From Candidatus Chloroploca mongolica (lineage in GTDB: Bacteria > Chloroflexota > Chloroflexia > Chloroflexales > Chloroflexaceae), in assembly GCF_004762035.2 (NCBI RefSeq), contig NZ_SIJK02000016.1, positions 27,069 to 91,068 of the forward strand: a stretch of DNA of 64,000 bases, in the 5' to 3' direction. Shown in pieces: positions 50,732 through 64,000 of this stretch; position 1 is the stretch's first letter, and the number at the start of each line of letters is the position of its first letter. Both the position numbers and the translations under genes were made by a program. The notes beneath the pieces are model-generated. The model was not told where the DNA came from. It searched no databases and saw nothing but the letters and a program-made list of their open reading frames with translations.

Positions 50732-53700
50732 ATGGAACTGACGATCTCGTCCCAATCCGCGAACGAAGCGCTCGTCAGGTGCGATGGCGTTGCGTCGCAC
50801 TGTTTCATTCCGCGAGAAGTCTTGCCAGCACCGCAGGATGGCTCACGTTTGCCCAACCCCCTGGACGATCCGGTCGCTTATGGACGTGCGCTCTTCACGG
50901 CGCTCTTCCCCACCGGCTCGCTCGCCCACGCGGCCCTGGCGGCCCGCCCTGAGCGGATCGTGCTGGTTGCCGAGGGCGCGCTGGATGCCGTGCCCTGGGA
51001 GTATCTCTACGGGCCGGATGGTTTTGTGGTGCTGGAGGTGCCTTTTGTACGTGGATTGCCGATAGAACGGCGTGTGGCCCCACCAACGCTTGATGGCGGG
51101 CTGCACATCGTGGCGGTGCCGAGCAATCCGCTTGACGCCGCTGTGGTGCCGCTGAATATTGACGGCGAGTGGCTGCGGCTGCGCGAGAGTGTGCAGGCCG
51201 TCGAGGGTGCGGTCGTCCTGGAGCGCACGCGCCCGGCTACCGATGAGCAACTGCGCCGCCTGGTCGCTGGCAAGCGCCACCGTGTCGTCCACTTTATGGG
51301 CCACGGCAGCGCACAGCAGGACGAGGCGCAGCTCTGCTTCGAGCGCGCTGACGGGGGCCTTGAACTGGTCAGCGCCCGCACGCTGGCCCAGCGGTTGCGC
51401 GGCACGGTCTTCCTGGTCACACTGAACGCCTGCGTCAGTGCCACGCCCGGCCCCACGCCCTTCAGCAACTTGGCGCGCCTGCTGATCGAACAGGGTACCC
51501 CCTACGCACTCGGCATGCGCTTCAGCATTGTGGATGACGACGCACGAGCCTTCGCGCGCACCCTGTATGACGATCTCGCCCGTGGCGTCCCCATTGAAGA
51601 GGCGTTGCTCCAGGCCCGTCTGAGCCTAGCGCGCAGCGCCCGACCATGGGCCGTCGGCGTCCCAGTGCTCTATACTGCCCTGACCACACCCGCTGGCGGC
51701 TTTGCGACCCCGGCGGGCCAGCCCGACGTGCGCGACCGTCGCCCGCCGATCCAGGTGAGCGCCCTCCCCCGCGCCGAGGGTGCCTTCCAGGGTCGTCAGG
51801 AAGAGTTGCGGGCCATTGGTGCGCACCTGACTGGCGATAGCCGCCCGCCGGTGCTGACCATCCACGGCATCGGCGGTCAGGGCAAGACCGCCCTGGCCCG
51901 CGAAGTTGCCGAACGTTTCGCTTGGGCCTTCCCCGGGGGCGTTTGGGCCATCTCGCTGGAGAGCCTACCCAGCCGCGAACTGGTGGTGGCCGATCTCGCC
52001 CGCTTCTACGAGATCAGTAGTAACGCCATCGCACCAGAGCAACTCGAACGTCAAATGCTGACCTCGCTCAGCCATAACGTCGTTATCCCACCGGAGCAAC
52101 TCGAACGCCAGGTGCTGATCCGCTTGAGCCAGCAGCGCACGTTGCTCATCTTCGACAATGCCGAGACCCTCATAGCAGCGGTGGAGGCGGGCGAGAGAGA
52201 GGCGCTGCGCTTGGTCGAGTTGTTGCGGCAGGAATTGACCGGCGCACAGGCGACCCTGCTGGTAACGTCGCGCTCATTGCTGGGCTGGCCTGGCGAAATT
52301 TACCTGAGCCTGGGCGGGCTATCGGCCCCAGATGGGGCGCGACTGTTCCGCCAAAGTGCGCCAGCCCGGGCAGGTGCGATTGATCAGCGTATGGCTGAGG
52401 TGCTAAGTGCAAGGGTTGAAGGACATCCCCTGAGCCTGCGTCTGCTCGGTGGTGCCTTCAACGACACAACTATGGCTTTGGAGTCGTTTGTAGCCGCCTA
52501 CGAAGCGCAGCTTGCGATGGCCCACAACACGTACCTGGGCGAAGATCACCGCCATCGTACGCTGTACGCCAGCATTGAAACCAGTGTGCGCTACCTGGCC
52601 CCCGCGTTGCGCGATCTGCTCAGCGGTCTCTGGATCTTCCACGCACCCTTCCTGCCCGAGACAGCCCAGGCGATCTTTGATCCCGCTCCTACTACTGATG
52701 ATGTGCAACGCCCAGATGTCCGCGACCAGTTGCACGCGCTCTGGCAGCGCGGGCTGATCGAGCGTGAACAGATCACCCTGGAAGAGGGCAGGCTACTATA
52801 TTATCGGCTACATCCTATCCTGCGGCTATACGCCGAGCACCACCTGCAACCCCAGGCCTATGCGCCTGACCTGCTCCAGTCTCACTTCGCCACGATCTAC
52901 CTCGAGCTAGTGCGCTTGGTCAGTGAGAAACTGAACAATGACAGTCGTGCATCATCAATTGCACAGCAAGTCCGCGAAGATTTCGAGCGAGGACTTAGCT
53001 TGTGTAGCCTAGAGCAACGCGATGAATATCAAGTACTATGGGGTTTGGTTACGGCACGACTTGGCGATCTGCGGCGTGCGTTGCAATTGTGCGAAGCCGC
53101 TTTGGAGCGGCTTCAGGGTGGTGATACACAAATCCACTTACTAGCACTGCAAAGTATGGCATTGGTGTACCAGGGTCTAGGCCAACCACAGCGAGCAATT
53201 CAGATCTACGAGGAAGCCATGCCAGTCTGGCGTGCAATTTGTGATCGCGCTGGCGAAGCCATCACACTGCGAGGTATGGCGGAAGTGTACCAAGTTCTGG
53301 GCCAGCCGCAGCGGGCGCTCGCACTCTACGAGGAAGCATTGTCGATCTTGCGTGTGTTGTGCGAAGATGATCTCATAGCCGTCACACTGAGTGGTATGGC
53401 AGGGTTATACATGGATCTGGGCGAGACGCAACGGGCGCTCCAGATTTTAGACGAAGCCTTACCGATTCTACGTGCAGTGGGTGACCGTTCCAACGAAGCT
53501 GTCACATTGAACTATATGGCCACAGTGTACCGGAGTAAGGGGCAACCACAGCAGGCACTCCAACTTTACGATGAAGCTTTACCGCTCGTGCGTGCAGTTG
53601 GTAACCGTGCCGGCGAAGCCACTACGCTGAATGGTATGGCGATGGTCTATCAGAGCCTAAGTCAATTCCATCGGGCTCTTCAGTTCTACGAGGAGGTTTT

Positions 53701-56341
53701 GCCAATCTGGCGTGCGATGGGCAACCCCACTGGCGAAGCCGCTACGTTGAACAACATGGCGACAGTTTACCAGATGCTGGGAGAGCCGATGCAGGCGCTC
53801 CAGTTTTACGAGAAGTCCTTGCTGATTAGACGTATGGTGAGCGACCTTGCAGGCGAAGCCTATACGCTGAACAACATGGCAGAATTATATCGAAGCATAG
53901 GCCAGCCTCAGCGGGCGCTCCTGTTGTGCGAAGAAGCTATCCTGATCTGGCAGTCAGTGGGCAACGCTAATGGAAAAGCTTCTACGCTCAATAATATGGC
54001 GATAGTCTATCAGATTTTGGGTCAACCAGAGCGTTCGATTACGATCTGCGACGAAGCCTTACCAATCTGGCGTGCAGCAGGCAATCCCGCTGGCGAAGCC
54101 AGCACCCTGAACGTTATGGCAGAGGTGTACCGAAACCTGGGCCAGCCGACGCAGGCGCTCCAGTTCTATGAGAAGACATTGCCAATCTTCCGTACGGTGG
54201 GTGACCGCGTAGGCGAAGCCCAAACACTAAATAACATGGCACTGCTATATCACGGTCTAGGGCAACCCGATCAATCGCTCCAGTTCTACGATGAAGCCTT
54301 GTCGCTCTGCCGTATGATAAGCTATCGAACTGGAGAAGCCGCTACCCTGCACGGGATGGCGATGGTGTACCAGAGCATAGGGCAACCAGAGCGAGCCCTC
54401 CACCTCTTCGCCGAAGCCATCCCAATCTCTCGTGAGATAGACGACTGGGCTAGCGAAGCATCTATGCACAAAAGCATGGCGCTGGTGTACCAAACACTAG
54501 GGCAACCGCAGCGAGCACTTCAACTCTTAGACGAAGTCTTGCCAATTTTTCGTGAAGTTGGGAACCGCACCGAAGAAGCCGATACGCTGAATGGTATGGC
54601 GCTAGTGTACCAGACCATAGGGCAGCCGCAACGAGCACTCGAACTCTTCGACAAAGCCCTGTCGATCTGGCGTGCAATTGGCAATCGTGCTGGCGAAGCC
54701 GCCGCATTGAATGCTATGGGCATGGTGTACCAAACACTAGGACAACCACAACGAGCATTTGAACTCTTCGATGAAGCCTTGCCGATCCTGCGCAAGGTGG
54801 GTAGCCGCGCTGGCGAAGCTGAAGCATTGCTTGGTCTGGGAGTGTTATACCAGAGCATAGGGCAACCAGAACGAGCACTTGAACTCTTCGACGAAGTCCT
54901 GCCGATCTGGCGTGCAATTGGTAATCGCGCTGGCGAAGCCGCCGCATTGAATGCTATGGGCATGGTGTATCAGACCATAGGACAGCCGACGCAAGCCTTC
55001 CAACTCTTCGACGAAGCTTTGCCGATCTGGCGTGAAATTGGTAACCGCGCTGGCGAGGCTGCCACGCTAAGCAATATGGCATCGTTGTACCAGAGTCTAG
55101 GACAGCCGGAGTGGGCACTCGAACTTTACGAGGAGGCTCTGCCAATCTGTCGCGAAGTAGGTAATCGTACTGGCGAAGCCGTCATACTAAGTAATATGGC
55201 ATATCTGTATATGTACTTGCAGCAATTTGAACAAGCTTTAATGCAATTTGAAGCATCTATTTTGCTAGCTCAGCAGACAGCTTATCCCGCCGTAGAGACC
55301 GCCAGCCTCATTGGTCAAGCCATACTTTTGTACCAACACTTGGAACGCCCCCAAGAGGCCATGATTCAGATCGAGGCAGCACTTCAAATTTTTGTAAACA
55401 CTGATTTGCCCCAAGATATTTCTGGTAATACACCTGAACATATACACCAAATCCGTGCGGCAATGCAGAGCGGTGAATCTCTCATGCAGTCTGACCCAAT
55501 AACCCTGCCCACAGAACAACTCCAGGTGTTGATTGCCAGTACCGTTGCTGTATTGACGAGCGTTCCTGAACATCATTCCGGTTGGCGGGATGATGTAGCT
55601 AACATGCTTATGAATGCTCAGCAAAGGGGCAATCACTGGCAGATGGAAGTTGATCTCTATGCTGCACTGCTCGCGCTGCTGGACGGTGAATTGGTGGTGC
55701 TTGCGCCAGATCACCCTTATGCACCTACGTTAGCTGCTATACAAGTGGAAATCGATAACAGGAACATTCCCCCGGTCGAGGTTTCGGAAGAAGTGATGCA
55801 GGTGGTACTTGCTTTTGTGAATGCTCCTAACTGCTCCACCCGTCGCCAGGTGGTCGAAAATCATCAATCCATCCTCTTCTCTCCTGAAGTCGAGGCGCTT
55901 CTCGAAGAGTACATTCAACTCGCACTCGACCAGGGCGATCAGGATACGGCAAAGGGACTCGCTATTCGTCAGAGTATACTCAAGAGCTGTCAGTCTAGCG
56001 GGATCGAAACTGTTTTTAGCAACTTAATGCTGATAGAGTCTATCTTTAGCCCACAAGCAGCGGATCAAGCACTGGATGTATCACCAATTGACCCCGATCT
56101 CGTTCCGCGCTCGATTGTCGCCCTGCTCGCTGGCCCACAAGAGAAAATGGCCCACGCGCAATACCTCAATGCGCTTGCCGCTGCCAATGATGATCAGGGG
56201 CTCACGGCGCTTGTCCAGGCCATCCAGACCGCCCTCTTCGGCGGTGACTTAGCCCAACTTGGTGCCAAGCTGACTGGCCCGTATGCCGAGGCGTGTGCGG
56301 CCATTGTGGCTGGGGTGGAGCATGCGCAGCAGCAGGAGTAG
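50732..56341 (+). CDS. CHAT peptidase-NB-ARC-TPR giant STAND protein
   Basis: The 1,869-residue product has an N-terminal CHAT (caspase-like) domain, residues about 60-325, with the catalytic dyad visible: His191 in HFMGHGSA and Cys234 in TLNACVSAT. NB-ARC: VLTIHGIGGQGKTALAREVAERF (Lys385), TLLIFDNAETL (~473), ATLLVTSRSLLGWPG and EGHPLSLRLLGGAF. From ~800 to ~1,500 there are some 17 forty-residue TPRs (MAxVYQxLGQPQRALQLYEEALPIWRAxGNRAGEAxTLNN), each exactly 120 bp. A C-terminal ~370-residue domain (LPTEQLQVLIASTVAVLTSVPEHH...FGGDLAQLGAKLTGPYAEACAAIVAG) is shared with the protein at 62108. The TPRs probably sense a ligand, NB-ARC oligomerises, and CHAT cleaves a target. It is first of a three-gene operon. 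Confidence 0.9.
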   Translation: MELTISSQSANEALVRCDGVASHCFIPREVLPAPQDGSRLPNPLDDPVAYGRALFTALFPTGSLAHAALAARPERIVLVAEGALDAVPWEYLYGPDGFVVLEVPFVRGLPIERRVAPPTLDGGLHIVAVPSNPLDAAVVPLNIDGEWLRLRESVQAVEGAVVLERTRPATDEQLRRLVAGKRHRVVHFMGHGSAQQDEAQLCFERADGGLELVSARTLAQRLRGTVFLVTLNACVSATPGPTPFSNLARLLIEQGTPYALGMRFSIVDDDARAFARTLYDDLARGVPIEEALLQARLSLARSARPWAVGVPVLYTALTTPAGGFATPAGQPDVRDRRPPIQVSALPRAEGAFQGRQEELRAIGAHLTGDSRPPVLTIHGIGGQGKTALAREVAERFAWAFPGGVWAISLESLPSRELVVADLARFYEISSNAIAPEQLERQMLTSLSHNVVIPPEQLERQVLIRLSQQRTLLIFDNAETLIAAVEAGEREALRLVELLRQELTGAQATLLVTSRSLLGWPGEIYLSLGGLSAPDGARLFRQSAPARAGAIDQRMAEVLSARVEGHPLSLRLLGGAFNDTTMALESFVAAYEAQLAMAHNTYLGEDHRHRTLYASIETSVRYLAPALRDLLSGLWIFHAPFLPETAQAIFDPAPTTDDVQRPDVRDQLHALWQRGLIEREQITLEEGRLLYYRLHPILRLYAEHHLQPQAYAPDLLQSHFATIYLELVRLVSEKLNNDSRASSIAQQVREDFERGLSLCSLEQRDEYQVLWGLVTARLGDLRRALQLCEAALERLQGGDTQIHLLALQSMALVYQGLGQPQRAIQIYEEAMPVWRAICDRAGEAITLRGMAEVYQVLGQPQRALALYEEALSILRVLCEDDLIAVTLSGMAGLYMDLGETQRALQILDEALPILRAVGDRSNEAVTLNYMATVYRSKGQPQQALQLYDEALPLVRAVGNRAGEATTLNGMAMVYQSLSQFHRALQFYEEVLPIWRAMGNPTGEAATLNNMATVYQMLGEPMQALQFYEKSLLIRRMVSDLAGEAYTLNNMAELYRSIGQPQRALLLCEEAILIWQSVGNANGKASTLNNMAIVYQILGQPERSITICDEALPIWRAAGNPAGEASTLNVMAEVYRNLGQPTQALQFYEKTLPIFRTVGDRVGEAQTLNNMALLYHGLGQPDQSLQFYDEALSLCRMISYRTGEAATLHGMAMVYQSIGQPERALHLFAEAIPISREIDDWASEASMHKSMALVYQTLGQPQRALQLLDEVLPIFREVGNRTEEADTLNGMALVYQTIGQPQRALELFDKALSIWRAIGNRAGEAAALNAMGMVYQTLGQPQRAFELFDEALPILRKVGSRAGEAEALLGLGVLYQSIGQPERALELFDEVLPIWRAIGNRAGEAAALNAMGMVYQTIGQPTQAFQLFDEALPIWREIGNRAGEAATLSNMASLYQSLGQPEWALELYEEALPICREVGNRTGEAVILSNMAYLYMYLQQFEQALMQFEASILLAQQTAYPAVETASLIGQAILLYQHLERPQEAMIQIEAALQIFVNTDLPQDISGNTPEHIHQIRAAMQSGESLMQSDPITLPTEQLQVLIASTVAVLTSVPEHHSGWRDDVANMLMNAQQRGNHWQMEVDLYAALLALLDGELVVLAPDHPYAPTLAAIQVEIDNRNIPPVEVSEEVMQVVLAFVNAPNCSTRRQVVENHQSILFSPEVEALLEEYIQLALDQGDQDTAKGLAIRQSILKSCQSSGIETVFSNLMLIESIFSPQAADQALDVSPIDPDLVPRSIVALLAGPQEKMAHAQYLNALAAANDDQGLTALVQAIQTALFGGDLAQLGAKLTGPYAEACAAIVAGVEHAQQQE

Positions 56342-56357
56342 TTAGGAAGGTAATATC

Positions 56358-57170
56358 ATGGCCCAACTCTTTCTCATTGCGACCCCTGCCGACGCCACTT
56401 GCACCGATGCGCTGCGTGATCTGCTCACTGCGCAGGGCTATGGTATCTGGTCACTCCCAGCCCACCTCGATTCCGGCTCAGCCTCCTATCCCAGCGCACT
56501 GGAGCGTGGGATTCGCGGTAGCGCCGCCTTGGTGTTGATCTGGAGCGCGGCGGCGGCGGGCGATGAGTGGGTTGAGCGCATGGTGCGCTATGGGCAGCAA
56601 CTGAAGAAGCCGGTCATCACGCTGGCCCGCGATGCGACGCCACTGCCAATTACGCTGGTTGATGCGCCGGGGCTGCGCGAGAACGGCGACCTTGCAGCGG
56701 CAGTCACGCGGCTTGTCCCGCTGCTGCCGCCACCCGAGCAGGACGATCTGCTGCTGGCGCTGCTGAGCCACGAGTATATCCGTGAGCAGAAACGTGGCAT
56801 TGCCGAGGCGGTCACCTTGATTCAGCGCGGTGAGCGCCGTGAGGAACTGCTCGCAATGCTTGAAGATCTGGCCCGCCATAGTCTGTACAACACGGTTGCG
56901 GCAGAGGCGCAGCAGGCGCTCGCCAGCCTCAGCGGTCAGCCCGCGCCGGAAGCCCCGCCCGCTGCGTCGCGCCATACCTTTGGCGTCCGCTGCCCCAAGG
57001 GGCACGTCAGTTGGTACGATAAGCGCGAGGTCTGCCCCGCCAGCGGGACAATCCCGCGTAGTACGGTGCGTAAGGCCGGGCAAGATCTGGACGAACTGCT
57101 GTTGCCCTGCCGTACCGCCGGTTGTACCGAGACGGTCGTGGTGCGCGTGGACTGTGAGGGCTACACATGA
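56358..57170 (+). CDS. TIR-like domain protein with C-terminal zinc ribbon
   Basis: ATG 56358 follows the CHAT stop by 16 bases, with GGAAGG upstream. Of 270 residues, 1-135 have the TIR/SEFIR-like pattern: AQLFLIATPADATCTDALRDLLTAQGYGIWSLP, RGIRGSAALVLIWSAAAAGDEWVERMV and KPVITLARD. Residues about 210-270 are a Cys/His-rich segment (FGVRCPKGHVSWYDKREVCPASG...LPCRTAGCTETVVVRVDCEGY) that probably binds zinc. By eye the paralogue at 61470 does not conserve a Glu at the usual TIR NADase position, so an adaptor role seems likelier than NAD cleavage. It is sandwiched between the CHAT sensor and a membrane protein, overlapping the latter by four bases. Confidence 0.8.
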   Translation: MAQLFLIATPADATCTDALRDLLTAQGYGIWSLPAHLDSGSASYPSALERGIRGSAALVLIWSAAAAGDEWVERMVRYGQQLKKPVITLARDATPLPITLVDAPGLRENGDLAAAVTRLVPLLPPPEQDDLLLALLSHEYIREQKRGIAEAVTLIQRGERREELLAMLEDLARHSLYNTVAAEAQQALASLSGQPAPEAPPAASRHTFGVRCPKGHVSWYDKREVCPASGTIPRSTVRKAGQDLDELLLPCRTAGCTETVVVRVDCEGYT

Positions 57171-57667
57171 CCAAACCGCCACCCACTACGCGCACCAGTC
57201 CGCCCGTCCCCGACCCACCAGTGCCAGAGATCAAGGATGGGGTGCCGCCCCGCGCCGAGCAGCAGCAACTCGCCGCCTTCTTTGCCGAGGCCGAGCGCAA
57301 GCAGGTGGACTTCCTCGACGAGGCCGGTAAGCGCATCATCGAACTGACCACCTTGCTGCTCGGCGTGCTCTTTACCGTGGTTGCCTTTGGCGACACATAC
57401 CCGCCGCCCTATCTCGCCGACAATCCCGTCGCCAAACTGCTCAGTCTGGTCATCCTGGCCTGCTACGTGGTGGCGATGCTGCTCGGGCTGCGCACGGTTC
57501 ACCCGCGTGACTATGCGCGATACCGCTACAACCTCGATGGGATGCGTGAAGAGCTTGACCGCATCCTGGCCAACAAGAAGCGCTCGCTCTTCTGGGCCGG
57601 GCTCACCTTCTGGGCCGGCTCGGGTTGCCTGGCGCTGCTGATCGGCATCATCATCATGCTAGCCTGA
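57167..57667 (+). CDS. Three-pass membrane protein of the CHAT operon (candidate effector)
   Basis: ATG 57167 overlaps the previous stop (ATGA). The 166-residue product has a Pro-rich start and an amphipathic helix (AFFAEAERKQVDFLDEAGKR), then three hydrophobic helices: IIELTTLLLGVLFTVVAF, LLSLVILACYVVAMLLGL and GSGCLALLIGIIIMLA. The loop between helices 2 and 3 is basic (HPRDYARYRYNLDGMREELDRILANKKR). The paralogue at 61018 keeps this design, including FLDEA.KRIIEL and YPPPYLA-type residues. No family is recognised. Conserved linkage to a protease-sensor suggests a membrane-disrupting or anchoring effector (inference). Confidence 0.8.
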   Translation: MTKPPPTTRTSPPVPDPPVPEIKDGVPPRAEQQQLAAFFAEAERKQVDFLDEAGKRIIELTTLLLGVLFTVVAFGDTYPPPYLADNPVAKLLSLVILACYVVAMLLGLRTVHPRDYARYRYNLDGMREELDRILANKKRSLFWAGLTFWAGSGCLALLIGIIIMLA

Positions 57668-57673
57668 GCTGCT

Positions 57674-57742
57674 TTTTGACGCAAAGGCGCAGAGGCGCAG
57701 CGGTATTACATATCTTTGCGCCGTTGCGCCTTTGCGTCAAAA
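57674..57742. terminator. Bidirectional intrinsic terminator
   Basis: TTTTGACGCAAAGGCGCA (57674-57691) and TGCGCCTTTGCGTCAAAA (57725-57742) are perfect 18-bp complements. The arm ends supply T-runs on both strands. It sits exactly between convergent operons and overlaps the last codons of the peptidase gene on the minus strand. Confidence 0.85.
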
Positions 57743-58099
57743 CAACCAGTCTTTTTTGCGGAGCCGCTCCTCACGCTCTTCCCAGTCGGGCAGGTAGGCC
57801 CACATGAAGCTTTTGAAAAGCTTGCTGTGGTTGGGCGCGAGCAGGTGGACGAGTTCGTGGACGATGACGTATTCGCCAAGTTCGCGCGGGAGGTCAACCA
57901 GTTCGCTGTTGAGGGTCAGGTTGCCGGCGGTGGACATTGAGGCCCACTTTGTGCGCATGGCCCGTACCTGGATGCGTACGACGCGTACGCCGATGCGCGC
58001 CGCCCATGCGCGGGTGGCCCAGCGCAGGTCATCGGCGTCGTGCCAGGTGCGCGCAGGCACCTGCGGCATGGTTGTCGCGCCCACGGCTCGCTCGCTCAT
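57737..58099 (-). CDS. YgjP/DUF45-type zinc metallopeptidase
   Basis: The 120-residue product has the DUF45 signature: RAMRTKWASMSTAGNLTLNSELVDLP, then YVIVHELVHLLAPNHSKLF, with zinc ligands His81, His85 and His91 and catalytic Glu82. ATG 58099 overlaps the hsdR stop (ATGA), so it is co-translated with hsdR. This pairing with type I restriction genes is a recurrent arrangement; the peptidase is presumed to act on the restriction complex or on proteins released by damage, but its substrate is unknown. It is short compared with E. coli YgjP (~167 residues) because only the core is present. Confidence 0.85.
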   Translation of the reverse strand: MSERAVGATTMPQVPARTWHDADDLRWATRAWAARIGVRVVRIQVRAMRTKWASMSTAGNLTLNSELVDLPRELGEYVIVHELVHLLAPNHSKLFKSFMWAYLPDWEEREERLRKKDWLF

Positions 58100-60966
58100 A
58101 TGCGTTGGAGTTTCATCAGCGCGGTGGTTGCCACGATAAAGTGTTGCTGGCCGACTAGGGGGAGCAGGGCTTGGTAGAGGGCGGTGCGCAGGGCACTTGC
58201 TTGCTGGGCGTTCCAGCCGTAGTCGGGGTGCTGCTGGAAGAGGGCGTTGAGCATGGTGGCTTGCGCGGCGGTTACGCCTGCTTGGTAGGGCTGGAGCGCG
58301 ACGTACAGCGCGTAGCTGTTTGCGTCGAGGCCCAGATGCGTGCGTTCGTCGGCTGCCTGCGCTGCTTGCTGCGCGAGGGCCTCGAAGGCGGCCAGGGCCT
58401 GCTGGGTGGTCAGTTGCCGATCTTCGTAGGCCTGGGCGACGCTTTCGGCCTGCTCGCCGATGGAGATCAGGAAGGGTTGGCTGGTGGCCTGGTCGTCAAC
58501 CGCCTTGGCCAGTGCCCGGCGTAGGTTGAGCACCTTCACGGTGTCGGAGCTGTCTGATTGCTTCAGGGCGGCCAACTCCTGCGGCCCCAGTTCGTGAATG
58601 GTGGCGGGTGGCGTCAGGTTGTAGAGGGTGGTGTGCTCGTGGAGCAGCGTGCGGGTCTTGTCGGTTAGTTCGCGATCCACGTAGGGCCGGGCGCTGTAGG
58701 CGCTGCGCACGAGATGGTAGAGCGCGGCCAGCGCCTCGTAGTCGTTCAGGTAGGGCCGCAGGAAGGCGTCGGGCGAGAGCACATCGTAGACCATTTGGAG
58801 TTGGCGGTAGAAGGTGAAGAATGCCTCACGCAGCTCCTTCGGCTCGAAGTACTCAATCGCCCGCTCCTTGGCCTTGTCGTCCCAGCCACGGGTCAGCGGC
58901 AGATACTGCGGGGCGGTCGCGCCCATCTGGGTCGCGAAGAGGTTGCGCAGCACATCGAGGTTCTGGATCACCGAGGCGACGACATCGGCGTCGAAGGCGA
59001 GGGCGCGCTCCAGCTTCTCGAAGATGCCCACGAAGTCGAGCACAAAGCCGTAGGGCTTCACCAGGCCGTCGTCGTCCTCGTAGGGTCGGTTGACGCGGGC
59101 GATCGCCTGGAGCAGCACATGGTCGCGCATCGGCTTGTCCAGGTACATCGCGTAGAGGATCGGCGCGTCGAAGCCGGTCAGCAGCTTCTCGGTGACGATG
59201 AGGATCTTCGGCGTGGTGCCCTTTTGGGCGAATATCTTGCGGACTTCTTTCTCCTGCGGGGCGCTCAGGTAGTGGGCCTTCAGCCGCTCGGGGTCGTTGT
59301 GGGCGGGGGAGATCACGACCTGGCTGTAGGCGGGCGGCAGGTGCTGGTCGAGTGCGGTTTTGTAGCGCACGCAGGCATCGCGATCCACTGCGACGAGAAA
59401 CGCCTTGAAGCCCAGCGGCTCGACGTTCTCACGGAAGTGCGTCGCCACAAAGGCGGCCACCTCGGCGACGCGCTGCTCGGCCTTCAGTGCCTCGGTGAGC
59501 GTCACGGCCTTGCGCAGGATGGCGTTCAGTTCTTCAAAATCGCTCACGCCCTCGGCTTCGGCCAGCGACAGGAACTCGCGCTCGAGGGTTTCGCGCTCGA
59601 CGCGCAGGTCAGAGGGGGCCAGGGCGTAGTTCAGCCGCACGGTGGTGCCATCCTCGACCGACTCGGCGATGTTGTATTTGTCGAGGTAGCCCTGCTCGTC
59701 ATCAATGCCAAAGACCTTGAAGGTGCCCTGGCCTTTGGCGAGCTTGTCGATAGGCGTGCCAGTGAAGCCGATGTAGGTGGCATTGGGCAGGGCGGCCAAC
59801 AGGTAGGTGCCAAGATCGCCGCCGGTGGTGCGGTGGGCCTCGTCGACCAGGACGACCACGCCGGTGCGCAGGTTTACATTGGCCGGGATGTCATCGAACT
59901 TGTGGATCATCGAGACGATCAGACCGCGGTAGTCGTCGGCGAGCAGCTTCTGCAGGTCGCGTTTGCTCTCGGCCACTTCCAGGGTGGTGATGCCGTAGCC
60001 GGTGATGTTCTTAAAAAGCTGGGCTTCCAGCTCGTTGCGATCCACGATCATCAGCACGGTCGGCTTCTCGCCATCGGGGGCCTCGCGCAACAGCTTGCTG
60101 GCGATGGTGATCATCGTCAGGGTCTTGCCGCTGCCCTGGGTGTGCCAGATCAACCCGCGCCGCCTGGTCGGCTCGGCCACCCGCACCAGCGCCTTCTCGA
60201 CCGCACGGGTCTGGTGCTGGCGCAGGATCATCTTGCTCAGGATGTCGTCGCGGCTCAGGAAGACAATGTAGTCACGCAGCACCTTGAGCATCCGGGCGCG
60301 GTCGAAGAAGGCTTTGACCTTGCGCTCGTAGTTGCCCGGCTCCTCCTCTTTCCAGTTGAAGAGGCTCTTGCGGCTGGTATTCCAGGTGACGCCGTAGAAG
60401 AAGTCGAGCAACTGCGTGACCTCAAAGAGCTGCGGCGTGATCAGCAATTCGGGGGTCTCGCGGTGATAGCGGCGCACCTGAGTCACACCCTGCTCCAGGC
60501 CATCCTGCTTGCCGGCGGCCTTGGTCTCGGCCAGGGCAAGCGGGATGCCGTTGATCAAGAAGACCACATCGGCGCGGTTGGCGTAGACCGTGCCGCGATA
60601 CGTCCACTCATCGGTGACCTGGAAGATGTTTGCGTCAGGGTTGTCGAAGTCGATCAGGCGCACATTGCGCTCGCGGTGCTCGGCGGGCACAAAGACCGAA
60701 TGCTCGCCGCGCAGCCAGGCCAGCGCATCGCGGTTGCCCTCAATGGTCGCGTTGAGCAGCCCAAGCTGGCGCACAATCTCGCCGGCCCGCGCCGCATCCA
60801 CCACGCCGGGGTTGAGCCGCAGCAACTGCGCCGTCAGCACCTCGGCGAAGATGCGCCCCGTCTCGCCACCGCGCAGGCGCAGCGCCTCCTCGCGGGGCAC
60901 AAAGCGCCAGCCAATCGCCTCGGCATAGCGGAGCATCGGATTTTGGACGGCGGAGCGTTCGGACAT
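58096..60966 (-). CDS. hsdR: Type I restriction endonuclease R subunit
   Basis: Of 956 residues, the N-terminal PD-(D/E)xK nuclease shows Asp133 (RADVVFLING) and Glu147-x-Lys149 (LALAETKAA). The SF2 translocase has Walker A WHTQGSGKTLTM (Lys281), DEAH at 375-378 (VLVDEAHRTTGG), FTGTPI and VTEKLLTGFDAP, and motif VI QAIARVNRPYEDDD. A helical C-terminal domain binds the methylase core. The architecture is complete and intact. No hsdM or hsdS lies in the window: the upstream neighbours are the second CHAT-type operon on the same strand. Either the other subunits are elsewhere or this is a displaced orphan. The downstream gene is the coupled YgjP-type peptidase. Confidence 0.93.
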   Translation of the reverse strand: MSERSAVQNPMLRYAEAIGWRFVPREEALRLRGGETGRIFAEVLTAQLLRLNPGVVDAARAGEIVRQLGLLNATIEGNRDALAWLRGEHSVFVPAEHRERNVRLIDFDNPDANIFQVTDEWTYRGTVYANRADVVFLINGIPLALAETKAAGKQDGLEQGVTQVRRYHRETPELLITPQLFEVTQLLDFFYGVTWNTSRKSLFNWKEEEPGNYERKVKAFFDRARMLKVLRDYIVFLSRDDILSKMILRQHQTRAVEKALVRVAEPTRRRGLIWHTQGSGKTLTMITIASKLLREAPDGEKPTVLMIVDRNELEAQLFKNITGYGITTLEVAESKRDLQKLLADDYRGLIVSMIHKFDDIPANVNLRTGVVVLVDEAHRTTGGDLGTYLLAALPNATYIGFTGTPIDKLAKGQGTFKVFGIDDEQGYLDKYNIAESVEDGTTVRLNYALAPSDLRVERETLEREFLSLAEAEGVSDFEELNAILRKAVTLTEALKAEQRVAEVAAFVATHFRENVEPLGFKAFLVAVDRDACVRYKTALDQHLPPAYSQVVISPAHNDPERLKAHYLSAPQEKEVRKIFAQKGTTPKILIVTEKLLTGFDAPILYAMYLDKPMRDHVLLQAIARVNRPYEDDDGLVKPYGFVLDFVGIFEKLERALAFDADVVASVIQNLDVLRNLFATQMGATAPQYLPLTRGWDDKAKERAIEYFEPKELREAFFTFYRQLQMVYDVLSPDAFLRPYLNDYEALAALYHLVRSAYSARPYVDRELTDKTRTLLHEHTTLYNLTPPATIHELGPQELAALKQSDSSDTVKVLNLRRALAKAVDDQATSQPFLISIGEQAESVAQAYEDRQLTTQQALAAFEALAQQAAQAADERTHLGLDANSYALYVALQPYQAGVTAAQATMLNALFQQHPDYGWNAQQASALRTALYQALLPLVGQQHFIVATTALMKLQRI

Positions 60967-61017: not shown

Positions 61018-61473
61018 CTACGCCTGGACAAGCACCAGCACAATCAAGCCTGCCAGCAGCACGGACGCAACACCAAACACGCCGCCTGCCCAACGCATCC
61101 AGAACATTTTGTGCGCCAACATCGCATCCAGTTCCTCACGCATGCCTTTCAGGTTGTACTGGTAGTGCTTGTACCTGCGCGGCTGGACACCCCAGAGCGC
61201 CAGCATCAGCGCACCAAGGTAGCCGCCTAAAGCGCTGATGCTCAGCACCTTCAGTAGCACATTGCCGGCCAGGTAGGGCGGTGGAAAAGCGTTGCCGAAG
61301 GCGATGACGGCGAAGAGAAGACCGAGCAGCGCCGAGACGAGTTCGATGATGCGCTTGGCCGCCTCGTCGAGAAATTCCAGTTGTTTCTTTTCAAGTTCGG
61401 CAAAGAGCTCGATCAAACGCTGTTCCTCGGTGGTCGGCGTTCGCCCTTCGAGGATCGGAGGCGGCGTCGTCAT
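61018..61473 (-). CDS. Three-pass membrane protein, paralogue of 57167-57667
   Basis: ATG 61473 overlaps the stop of the TIR-like gene (ATGA). The 151-residue product repeats the design of the first copy: amphipathic LIELFAELEKKQLEFLDEAAKR, then IIELVSALLGLLFAVIAFG, LKVLSISALGGYLGALMLALWG and GGVFGVASVLLAGLIVLVLV. It has the same AFPPPYLAGN element and the basic loop YKHYQYNLKGMREELDAMLAHK. Conservation of the N-terminal helix and first membrane segment exceeds that elsewhere, suggesting a functional interface. It is last gene of the second three-gene operon, 51 bases before the hsdR start. Confidence 0.8.
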   Translation of the reverse strand: MTTPPPILEGRTPTTEEQRLIELFAELEKKQLEFLDEAAKRIIELVSALLGLLFAVIAFGNAFPPPYLAGNVLLKVLSISALGGYLGALMLALWGVQPRRYKHYQYNLKGMREELDAMLAHKMFWMRWAGGVFGVASVLLAGLIVLVLVQA

Positions 61474-62111
61474 CGGTAGCCCTCACAATCCACTTCAACA
61501 ACGACCCATTCGGAACAGCCAGAAGTACCACAGCGAAGCCGCAAAGCATCAAAGTTTTTGCCATCACGCAACTCTGTCAAGCGGACAATGGTACCACCAG
61601 CCCGGCAAACCACCTGCTTGTCGAAGTAGGTAACGTGGCCTTTCGCACAGCGCACGCCAAAGATATGATTCACCGCAGCATTCTGCGCTTTTATCGCGGT
61701 TCCAAAGGGCGCTGACGGTTTAGGTGAAGCATTGTTGCTCGCCCCAGGCGGCAGGTGCGCCAGCAGGTGCGCCACGGCATCAGGAAACGGCGCACGGCTG
61801 TGCACGAGCGGCGCTTTCGCCAACGCCTGCGGAAACGAAGTCCCATCAAGTGCAAGAACCACCAATGGTTTATGGAGCCATTGGGCATGCTCGATTTGCG
61901 TTATGACAGGTTGCGCCTGGGCTGCCGTTGCACTCCAGACAACGAGGATGCTTTGGCTGTCACGCACGCCGGCCTGCCAGACTTGCTCGCGCCCATGTGG
62001 CGAACCAGATGGGTCGGCCCAGATGACATACCCGCGGTCGGCCAACGCGTGGCGCAGTTGCAAGCCAGTGGCCGCATCCTGGGGGCTGTGAATGAGAAAG
62101 AGCTGGGTCAT
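61470..62111 (-). CDS. TIR-like + zinc-ribbon protein, paralogue of 56358-57170
   Basis: ATG 62111 overlaps the stop of the upstream TPR gene (ATGA); an earlier in-frame start would lie inside that gene. The product is 213 residues. TIR-like part: TQLFLIHSPQDAATGLQLRHALADRGYVIWAD, AGVRDSQSILVVWSATAAQAQPVITQIEHAQWLHKPLVVLALDG. Zinc-ribbon part: IFGVRCAKGHVTYFDKQVVCRAGGTIVRL...LRLRCGTSGCSEWVVVEVDCEGY. The Cys pattern, KGH, DK and VDCEGY are identical in both copies, whereas the linker is ~60 residues shorter. The position where the first copy has Glu (DEWVE) is not acidic here, so it is likely non-enzymatic. Confidence 0.8.
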   Translation of the reverse strand: MTQLFLIHSPQDAATGLQLRHALADRGYVIWADPSGSPHGREQVWQAGVRDSQSILVVWSATAAQAQPVITQIEHAQWLHKPLVVLALDGTSFPQALAKAPLVHSRAPFPDAVAHLLAHLPPGASNNASPKPSAPFGTAIKAQNAAVNHIFGVRCAKGHVTYFDKQVVCRAGGTIVRLTELRDGKNFDALRLRCGTSGCSEWVVVEVDCEGYR

Positions 62112-64000
62112 GCCGCATTCCCTCCGTGTGAAAGACCGGCCACAATTGCCGCCCATGCCTGGGCATAGACGCCTTCGAGGTTCTGCCCAAGTGTGCGCAG
62201 CTTGCCGCCAAAGAGGGCCGTCTGAATCGTGGTGACCAGGAGCTTGAGCTGCGGATCATCCGTCTGTCCGGCAAGCTGACTGAGAAACTGGGCATGGGCC
62301 ATTTTCGCCTGCGGATTGCCGCGCAAGGCCGCGATCGTGCGTGGAATCACCTCGGCGTCGAAGGGCAATTCCGCTTGCGCTTGCACCATCTCAGCGAGTT
62401 GATCAAAAGCGGTAGCGATACCCTGCGCCTTACAAACTCGCAGCAGGTCAAGATGGAATTGGAGCATTTCGGTTCCACCTTGATCGCCCTGACTCTGAGT
62501 CTGAGCAATGTTGTGCGCAAAAATCGTCTCAACCTCTGGCTGGAACAACAGCGCCTGCTGTTGCTCCACTACCTGACGCATCGCAGCAAGATCGCCTGCA
62601 TTCACGAAATCGCGAATCGCCTGGATAAGCTCATTAATGTTTGTTGGTTGCCCCATTGCCCCGTCTTCAACCCCGTGCCGGATTGCAGCAATAGCACTGG
62701 CATAGGGATGATCCGCCGGTAAGTCGGTTGGCTGCCCATCAAGCCAGGCGAGAACCGCAGTGTACAGTTCAACCTCAATCTGCCAATCAGCGCCGTCCTG
62801 CTGGGCCTGTTGCAGCGCACCGCTGATGACGCCGCGCCATTCGACATGTTTTTCTGGCATCTGTGTAAGGACGGCAACCGTATTGCTGACGACAACACGA
62901 AGCTGTTCTGCGGGCAGGGTTGCCGGGCTGGTCGAGGACTCACTATCTAAGGAGTCGCCGCGTTGCATAACGCCCAATAGCTGTTGCATTGCTACAATGG
63001 TAGTACCGGATGCAGCACGATCCAGCCCACTCATTTGCAAGACACCAATGGCTTGTTGCAAAGACTGGATTGCTTCTGAAGCACGATCAAGGCTTTGATA
63101 GAGCACCACGGCTACACCTGTCAGGGTGTCTGCCTCGCCGGCCCGGTCGCCCACTTCGCGCCGCAGGGGCAGCGCCTCCTCGTAGAGCGCCAAGGCCCGC
63201 TGCGGCTGCCCCGTGGCATCGTACACCCCCGCCATGTTGGTCAGCGTCGACGCCTCGCCGGCCCGGTCGCCCACTTCGCGCCTCAGGGGCAGCGCCTGCT
63301 CGTAGAGCGCCAAGGCCCGCTGCGGCTGTCCCGTGGCACCGTACACCAACGCCATGCTGTTCAGCGTCGTCGCCTCGCCGGCCCGGTCGCCCACTTCGCG
63401 CGTCAGGGGCAGCACCTGCTCGTAGAGCGCCAAGGCCCACTGCGGCTGCCCCGTCTGCTGGTACACCAACGCCATGTTGTGCAACGTCGCGGCCTCGCCG
63501 GCCCGGTCGCCCACTTCGCGCCTCAGGGGCAGCGCCTGCTCGTAGAGCGCCAAGGCCCGCTGCGGCTGCCCCGTCAGCTGGTACACCGCCGCCATGTTGG
63601 TCAGCGTCGCGGCCTCGCCGGCCCGGTCGCCTACCGCGCACCGCAGAGGGAGCGCCTGCTCCAAGAGCGCCAAGGCCCGCTGCGGCTGCCCCATGTTCTG
63701 GTAAACCATCGCCATGTTGTTCAGCGTCACGGCCTCGCCGGCCCGGTCGCCCACTTCGCGCCTCAGGGGAAGCGCCTGCTCTAAGAGCGCCAAGGCCCGC
63801 TGCATCTGCCCCGTGGCATCGTACACCATCGCCATGTTGTTCAGCGTCACGGCCTCGCCGGCCCGGTCGCCCACCGCGCGCCTCAGAGAGAGCACCTCCT
63901 CGTAGAGCGCCAAGGCCTGCTGCGGCTGCCCCGTCTGCTGATAGATCAACGCCATGTTGGTCAAGGCGTGGAGTTTCAGATCCTGATCATCTGTGCCGGC
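62108..64000 (-). CDS. TPR protein of second CHAT-type operon (5' part outside window)
   Basis: The frame is open to the right edge (AGTDDQDLKLHALTNMALIYQQTG...), so the N-terminus is missing. About eight 40-residue TPRs occupy 63110-64000 (MALVYQQTGQPQWALALYEQVLPLTREVGDRAGEATTLNS). They are followed by the ~370-residue C-terminal domain found also in the CHAT protein at 50732 (LPAEQLRVVVSNTVAVLTQMPEKHVEWRG...FGGKLRTLGQNLEGVYAQAWAAIVAG). The downstream ATGA-coupled genes are the same TIR-like and membrane types. I therefore predict CHAT and NB-ARC domains beyond the edge, but they are not seen. Confidence 0.85.
   Translation of the reverse strand, partial: AGTDDQDLKLHALTNMALIYQQTGQPQQALALYEEVLSLRRAVGDRAGEAVTLNNMAMVYDATGQMQRALALLEQALPLRREVGDRAGEAVTLNNMAMVYQNMGQPQRALALLEQALPLRCAVGDRAGEAATLTNMAAVYQLTGQPQRALALYEQALPLRREVGDRAGEAATLHNMALVYQQTGQPQWALALYEQVLPLTREVGDRAGEATTLNSMALVYGATGQPQRALALYEQALPLRREVGDRAGEASTLTNMAGVYDATGQPQRALALYEEALPLRREVGDRAGEADTLTGVAVVLYQSLDRASEAIQSLQQAIGVLQMSGLDRAASGTTIVAMQQLLGVMQRGDSLDSESSTSPATLPAEQLRVVVSNTVAVLTQMPEKHVEWRGVISGALQQAQQDGADWQIEVELYTAVLAWLDGQPTDLPADHPYASAIAAIRHGVEDGAMGQPTNINELIQAIRDFVNAGDLAAMRQVVEQQQALLFQPEVETIFAHNIAQTQSQGDQGGTEMLQFHLDLLRVCKAQGIATAFDQLAEMVQAQAELPFDAEVIPRTIAALRGNPQAKMAHAQFLSQLAGQTDDPQLKLLVTTIQTALFGGKLRTLGQNLEGVYAQAWAAIVAGLSHGGNAA
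63110..64000 (-). repeat. 120-bp near-identical tandem repeats (TPR-coding)
   Basis: A 120-bp unit recurs at exact spacing, with the core CGCCAAGGCCCGCTGCGGCT and CCTCGCCGGCCCGGTCGCC repeated nearly unchanged in each copy. Nucleotide identity between units is far higher than among the 120-bp repeats of the paralogue at 53100-55220, implying recent expansion or gene conversion. The repeat continues past the right edge. Confidence 0.85.

Follow-up and report, generated by a model that had tools for sequence, protein, structure and literature searches.

We believe that the tandem array of 120-bp TPR units close to the edge of the window, by which we mean the whole 64,000-nucleotide stretch analysed here (C68:27069-91068 in a 6.32-Mb genome of 160 contigs), serves a bacterial NLR-like (STAND) receptor as its ligand sensor. 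Its units would be homogenised by exchange and their inner face would be kept diverse by selection; judging from the sequence, we give this reading about two chances in three. The comparisons below support the receptor architecture, the CHAT and ATPase motifs, a chassis present at two loci with different arrays, polymorphisms shared between those arrays and an excess of change at contact sites, while the nature of the ligand and the steps that would lead to killing are our inference. The main point is where the units differ from one another, which the original prediction, with its emphasis on copy number, missed.

The seven units, each of 40 residues or 120 bp, lie on the minus strand at 63131..63970 and correspond to protein residues 784-1063, as delimited with Tandem Repeats Finder and codon tables. 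Tandem Repeats Finder itself reported the array at 63132-63963 (period 120, 6.9 copies, 87% matches, score 1157). Since a single reading frame stays open through the array (minus strand) and Pfam found TPRs along it (TPR_12, E 2.5e-64), the 120-bp TPR array that had been proposed is real. Before counting, we excluded the degenerate units that flank every array, the partial units at the ends of contigs C35 and C126, a sixth, degenerate unit in the related array L037 and 4 of the 21 listed units of the paralogue encoded nearby. Pairs of the seven remaining units share 0.767-0.917 of their DNA positions (mean 0.852), with a mean protein identity of 0.785, in contrast to a mean DNA identity of 0.634 among the paralogue's 17 analysed units. 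Thus, 'nearly identical' overstates repeats that are 77-92% alike at the DNA level (mean 85%), but the contrast with a paralogue whose repeats are well diverged was drawn correctly. Similarly, the wording 'recently homogenised' holds when the paralogue is the yardstick, with a pS between units of 0.17 compared to 0.64, but does not extend to a fresh duplication of units. The assembler is unlikely to have collapsed or expanded this copy, since all seven units differ from each other and no exact repeat within the array is longer than 77 bp; on the strength of that length we discarded a collapse artefact for the window copy. The same cannot be said of the C35 array described below, which carries a 181-bp exact repeat near the contig end and whose assembled length is not necessarily its true length.

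In the Pfam TPR_1 alignment, in which unit position k corresponds to TPR position k+1, the units differ from each other mainly at TPR positions 2, 5, 9, 12, and 13. Mean protein identity among the window units is 0.22 at these five positions versus 0.87 elsewhere. Across the 14 units of the two loci, the ratio of pN at the five positions to whole-unit pS comes to 3.04 (bootstrap 2.20-4.23), as opposed to 0.40 at the other positions; the excess of amino-acid change on the interaction surface that marks fungal-type NLRs is therefore found here, at five concave positions. These ratios were obtained by counting, without a codon model, and because the units are few and recombine they do not amount to a formal selection test. 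Only 4 of the 658,008 possible five-position sets show as much change, 12 of the 14 units carry distinct five-residue combinations, and the five positions span a 100-degree arc on an ideal helix. We picked the five positions out of the unit variation, as contact sites, before comparing them with the literature. In PMC1261162, TPR positions 2, 5, 9, 12, 13, 33, and 34 are given as the most variable sites, located on the concave face, and the five belong to the peptide contacts of HOP. Positions 33 and 34 of the published seven were left unused because the unit has 40 rather than 34 residues; pN at position 33 is 0.14. Positions 24 and 31 vary as well and are absent from the published contact sets. 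The paralogue has a high pS and a ratio of 0.76 at the five positions.

Such a pattern might also arise by neutral homogenisation, in which a young or converted array varies at five positions that are merely exposed and unconstrained, with no diversifying selection. It is in keeping with this view that TPRs at large vary most at these sites (PMC1261162), that the units are few and that recombination can mislead such tests. However, an unconstrained pN/pS should lie near 1, rather than at the value above for the two loci or at the 5.31 seen in L037, and TPR positions 16, 18, and 22, which we took to be exposed, vary in only 1, 0, and 0 of the 14 units. We consider neutral homogenisation unlikely and favour diversifying selection on the ligand-contacting face.

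The genome contains a second operon, split over three contigs, with hsdM on C116, part of hsdS and the stretch from CHAT to the array on C35, and the end of the array through to hsdR on C126. Between the two loci, receptor codons 1-775 agree in 2321 of 2325 bases, and there are no mismatches in the compared stretch of hsdM (1749 bases), the TIR gene (687) or the membrane-protein gene (456). Counted from 300 bp upward, exact-match tracts of 2,483, 2,259, 1,933, and 439 bp add up to 7,114 bp. In the genes compared, the loci differ in the array, in the hsdS specificity domains (for the part available for comparison), in the C-terminal region of the receptor and in a patch of hsdR; intergenic stretches and those beyond the genes differ too. 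The two hsdR copies (L011:2113-4983 and that of the window) show 23 mismatches over 2871 bases, none of them outside bases 942-1215; most are silent, with 3 of the 23 altering amino acids, and this 274-base patch looks like a conversion tract. As for hsdS (L010:3274-4282 and L009:18496-19443), the specificity domains differ and the adjoining CHAT DNA is identical.

Could the second copy be chimeric, or the allele of another strain, so that shuffling between loci is an illusion of assembly? The genome is in 160 contigs, C35 and C126 each end inside the array, and the assignment of arrays to loci depends on the assembler having crossed a 2.5-kb identical tract. Against this, collapse cannot create different unit sequences, completeness is 99.84 and contamination 1.22, and similar arrays are present in the single-contig genomes G033, G038, and G046. 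In addition, G001, a genome of the same genus, matches the flank of C116 at 97.9% over 2,727 bp and that of C126 at 97.8% over 1,478 bp. Both flanks are collinear there on one contig, about 1 kb apart and without the operon genes, and for this reason we regard C116 and C126 as one real second locus; to place C35 between them is the simplest reading. We judge an artefact or strain mixture to be quite improbable, and take the second copy to be a genuine locus of this genome.

Several further features mark these sites. The G001 site keeps a stretch resembling that behind hsdM. A palindromic repeat roughly 100 bp long is scattered through the genome with dozens of matches (102 rows, in which operon matches and double counts are included); it occurs close to the duplicated operon's borders and at the matching G001 site (window 57676-57761; L025:2802-2944 and 731-841; L011:5350-5440). 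After hsdR, C126 holds a remnant of the paralogue's membrane-protein gene (L011:5543-5737), and a similar remnant is found at the G001 site.

To compare the arrays, we set the seven window units against the seven complete units of C35 and C126. The two sets show no fixed differences, 29 shared polymorphic columns and 11 and 6 private ones, and mean unit identity is 0.868 between loci versus 0.852 and 0.876 within them. Pairing the units in register does no better than chance, as 6549 of 20000 random pairings equal it, so there is no positional correspondence. Compared to relatives, the arrays have 6 fixed differences from L056 and 13 from L037. Both arrays thus seem to draw on a single pool of units, distinct from those of other species, as expected of concerted evolution, and the comparison supports unit shuffling from one pool together with diversifying selection on the binding face. 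An almost identical second copy with a differently shuffled array suggests a bacterial means of altering what a receptor recognises; since the two copies in this genome combine the same chassis with a different sensor, their triggers should differ.

The expectation that the sensor evolves rapidly is well supported by this second locus, with its four exact tracts around a different array, by the concentration of differences at ligand-contact positions and by the variation in the arrays of relatives. The original prediction also proposed, as a check, to compare repeat number and sequence among strains. Between species the arrays differ in both, and the analysed units number 3, 5, 7, or 17 per array across the receptor and its relatives, the paralogue included; a related clade has about 10-12 copies, the longest of its arrays being cut by the locus edge. 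In the closest pair, however, the second array is cut by a contig end. L056 and L091 (genome G003) are 97.8% identical past the array (2135 of 2184 bases), and the two complete units of L091 match three L056 units at 90-95%, the first of them best off register. Copy number may change between strains.

How general is the pattern at the five positions? The same direction is seen in L037 (5 units) and in L056, where the ratio is 10.3 against 1.06 at other positions (3 units), and the three units of L047 show no change at all at the five positions. Arrays of a second clade, clade B (L039, L041, and L046), vary at positions 6, 9, and 31, and we therefore rejected the exact five-position rule as a general one. 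For these arrays the five-position set is unremarkable, with 3764, 7696, and 1568 of 20000 random sets doing equally well in L039, L041, and L046, respectively. When the six contact positions of HOP are used instead, L039 and L046 are exceptional (226 and 150 of 20000 random sets do equally well), which hardly applies to L041 (1179). Arrays of 120-bp units with 93-98% matches occur in 9 of the 20 loci scanned (L037-L055 and L056), some of them in single-contig genomes. Mean protein identity between units is 0.838 in the C35 array, 0.858 in L056 and 0.918 in L037. L037 is nearer to the window paralogue (74%) than to the window receptor (57%), and its units are alike although the paralogue's are diverged; homogenisation therefore comes and goes.

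The gene that carries the array is a CHAT-NACHT/NB-ARC-TPR gene, the 3' part of which occupies 62108..64000 on the minus strand according to the ORF calls, the window cutting the gene. The full gene runs past the window edge (L009:14177-18388, equivalent to window positions 62108-66319) and encodes 1403 aa, with a CHAT protease, a NACHT/NB-ARC ATPase, the TPR sensor and a C-terminal region in that order. Pfam places CHAT at residues 49-305 (1.1e-29) and NACHT (1.2e-9) and NB-ARC (5.1e-7) at about residues 356-496, all outside the window. With these matches above cut-off, the protein has the architecture of STAND/NLR-like receptors, that is, an N-terminal effector, a central ATPase and C-terminal repeats. 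In all six aligned proteins, the window protein among them, Walker A is retained and an H[FY]xGHG motif is followed by an AC motif; we take these two motifs to be the catalytic His and Cys of CHAT, which points to a probable protease. AlphaFold2 (AF2) predicts a regular TPR solenoid for the array, with a 10-residue mean pLDDT of 85-97, and the structures nearest to this model are the TPRs of LGN, most of them solved in complexes. The C-terminal region after the array (62108..63130, minus strand) is 89 residues shorter in the second copy on C126 (alignment A1), and its AF2 confidence is mostly low to middling. For the full receptor protein PADLOC returned only TPR and SAVED_CHAT (E 1.5e-6), and PADLOC 2023 gave no Avs-named match for the receptor or the paralogue. 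The sole PDB sequence match was 8tl0, a 'CHAT domain-containing protein' (E 3.3e-4), which we presume to be SAVED-CHAT.

The operon runs hsdM, hsdS, CHAT-STAND-TPR, TIR-fold gene, membrane-protein gene, hsdR. It is a type I restriction operon by its N6_Mtase, HsdM_N, and Methylase_S matches in Pfam and its REase_I match in PADLOC; hsdM and hsdS are situated outside the window, and hsdR, the type I restriction subunit, lies at 58096..60966 on the minus strand (REase_I, E 2.1e-91). The TIR-fold protein (61470..62111, minus strand; Pfam TIR_2, E 3e-6) has a cysteine-rich C-terminal part; we set the start of its gene at the ATG at 62111, the longer listed ORF reaching 62156. Its AF2 model (pLDDT 74.8) resembles the TIR domains of SPARTA and SARM1 in Foldseek. 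At the presumed site of the TIR catalytic glutamate, the three proteins of alignment A2 have Gln, Met, and Gln by eye. The small membrane protein (61018..61473, minus strand), with hydrophobic segments identified by eye, is a recurrent neighbour of CHAT-STAND-TPR genes: in lists read by hand for the 158 genomes of the class, 16 of its 23 listed places have a CHAT-STAND-TPR match no more than about 4 kb away, while of the other seven one is the C126 remnant and six have no assignment.

The paralogue set at 50732-57667 contains the same three gene types and is oriented towards the receptor operon. It comprises, on the plus strand, the CHAT-NB-ARC-TPR paralogue itself (50732..56341; 1869 aa, 17 diverged 40-residue units analysed), a TIR-like gene (56358..57170; Pfam TIR_2, 1e-9) and a membrane-protein gene (57167..57667), the product of which is 52% identical to that of 61018-61473. 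A YgjP-like metallopeptidase gene (57737-58099) sits between the paralogue operon and hsdR.

We propose the following model for the receptor. Exchange of 120-bp units within and between the two loci would keep the array similar, and selection would maintain differing residues on the inner, ligand-contacting face. Shuffling of units would therefore give rise to receptors of new specificity while leaving the signalling chassis as it is. The TPR face may bind a ligand, most likely a protein of a phage or other invader; binding would open and oligomerise the ATPase, which in turn would activate the CHAT protease. Activated CHAT could then release the small membrane protein as a membrane effector, with the TIR-fold protein perhaps acting as an adaptor or substrate of CHAT, and the released effector would stop or kill the infected cell. 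If true, a shuffling receptor would represent a second, simpler route to variable immunity beside retroelements. A stronger form of this proposal is a retroelement-free combinatorial repertoire, in which units are exchanged between loci, selection acts on five contact residues per unit, the TPR array and hsdS change together on an almost invariant chassis, and arrays possibly vary between cells; we hold this only tentatively, as something that could be so but probably is not.

The protein may, on the other hand, have nothing to do with immunity, being either a HetF-like regulatory or scaffold CHAT-TPR protein that adapts to host partners or a device for kin or self-non-self recognition, comparable to the heterokaryon incompatibility of fungi. 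It does match the NCBIfam HetF model, although at E 1.3e-4 and 20.4 bits against a cut-off of 1200, and fungal NLRs of the same regime act in allorecognition, according to PMC12222747 and PMC12881547. That the gene is embedded in a type I restriction operon, that it has a membrane-protein partner, that it is missing at the matching G001 site and that its distribution is patchy all speak against such roles. The receptor was found in 3 of the 158 class genomes at E 1e-60, its own genome included and the G003 copy, of which the C-terminal end alone is present, uncounted. In a plasmid collection 23 records held distant relatives only, none spanning 80% of the query. A role outside immunity is in our view improbable, and we retain that of a receptor for invaders.

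According to PMC10907252, the sensors of STAND proteins in multicellular bacteria are diversified by diversity-generating retroelements (DGRs), and the fast-changing NLR-like sensors described there use such elements. Targeted mutagenesis of this kind could in principle yield the variable codons, and the genome does contain reverse-transcriptase matches (9 rows). None of these is on C68, C35, C116, or C126, and apart from the copies on C68, C35, and C126 no match of >70% identity to the array region was found that could serve as a template repeat. Furthermore, the variation recurs in each unit, and adenine changes do not account for all variable codons. Having found neither a reverse transcriptase on the operon contigs nor a template repeat, we ruled out a DGR origin, to which we give almost no credence. 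Like the DGR-diversified sensors (PMC10907252), the array is a hypervariable sensor on a STAND protein; it is built of repeat units, however, where theirs have a C-type lectin fold.

A close parallel is found in fungi, whose NLRs, as described by Dyrka et al. (PMC4986451), follow the same regime and include TPRs in which the sites under selection lie on the concave face. The HNWD/HET-E WD40 and NB-ARC/TPR genes of Podospora share a STAND core, highly similar repeats that form a superstructure, unit shuffling and excess variation on the concave (TPR) face (PMC4986451 and PMC12222747). In contrast, the window receptor is bacterial, has a CHAT protease as effector and lies inside a type I restriction operon; exchange occurs among alleles in the fungi and between two loci of one genome here, and the fungal proteins have a role in incompatibility, for which there is no known equivalent in the window receptor. 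The criterion of Dyrka 2014 asks for repeats that are 85% alike or more across 100 aa; mean protein identity, a measure unlike that of the paper's program, reaches 0.785 in the window array, 0.838 in C35, 0.858 in L056 and 0.918 in L037. With Avs and bNACHT the receptor shares an N-terminal effector, a STAND ATPase and a repeat sensor and, probably, the sensing of invaders. According to PMC10907252, the antiviral STANDs that have been characterised bind phage proteins that are conserved, whereas the window sensor appears built to change and matches none of the curated Avs models in PADLOC. Prokaryotic highly repetitive WD40 proteins similarly have young internal repeats with variable interaction hotspots, but on WD40 rather than TPR units, and two-locus exchange is not described in the excerpt of PMC5587647. 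TPR-CHAT (Csx29, Craspase) and SAVED-CHAT have the CHAT protease in common with the receptor, which differs in the NTPase between CHAT and TPR and in its restriction-system operon genes.

In the titles and abstract beginnings searched, we recognised no precedent for recombination-diversified TPR arrays in bacterial STAND proteins. What appears to be new is the combination of a bacterial CHAT-STAND-TPR receptor, lacking a detected DGR, with a restriction operon in which hsdS specificity differs between copies. Taken at the level of sequence, the evidence supports a bacterial counterpart of the fungal NLR regime in which no retroelement was detected.

TPR arrays seem to break the assembly of this genome elsewhere too. 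Contig C6 ends (L012:8237-8464) inside another CHAT-STAND-TPR array, with 1.9 copies of a 120-bp unit that are 100% identical, and contigs C10 and C31 (L028:1-321 and L029:19-260) start within 126-bp TPR arrays with 95% and 91% matches, respectively. The contig of L056 (L056:1-7283) bears the label of a Chromatiaceae MAG and shares 97.8% identity past the array with G003, a member of the window's family, which reflects either misbinning or transfer. Finally, the window itself starts with a tandem repeat of period 237, present in 2.6 copies at positions 1-615.
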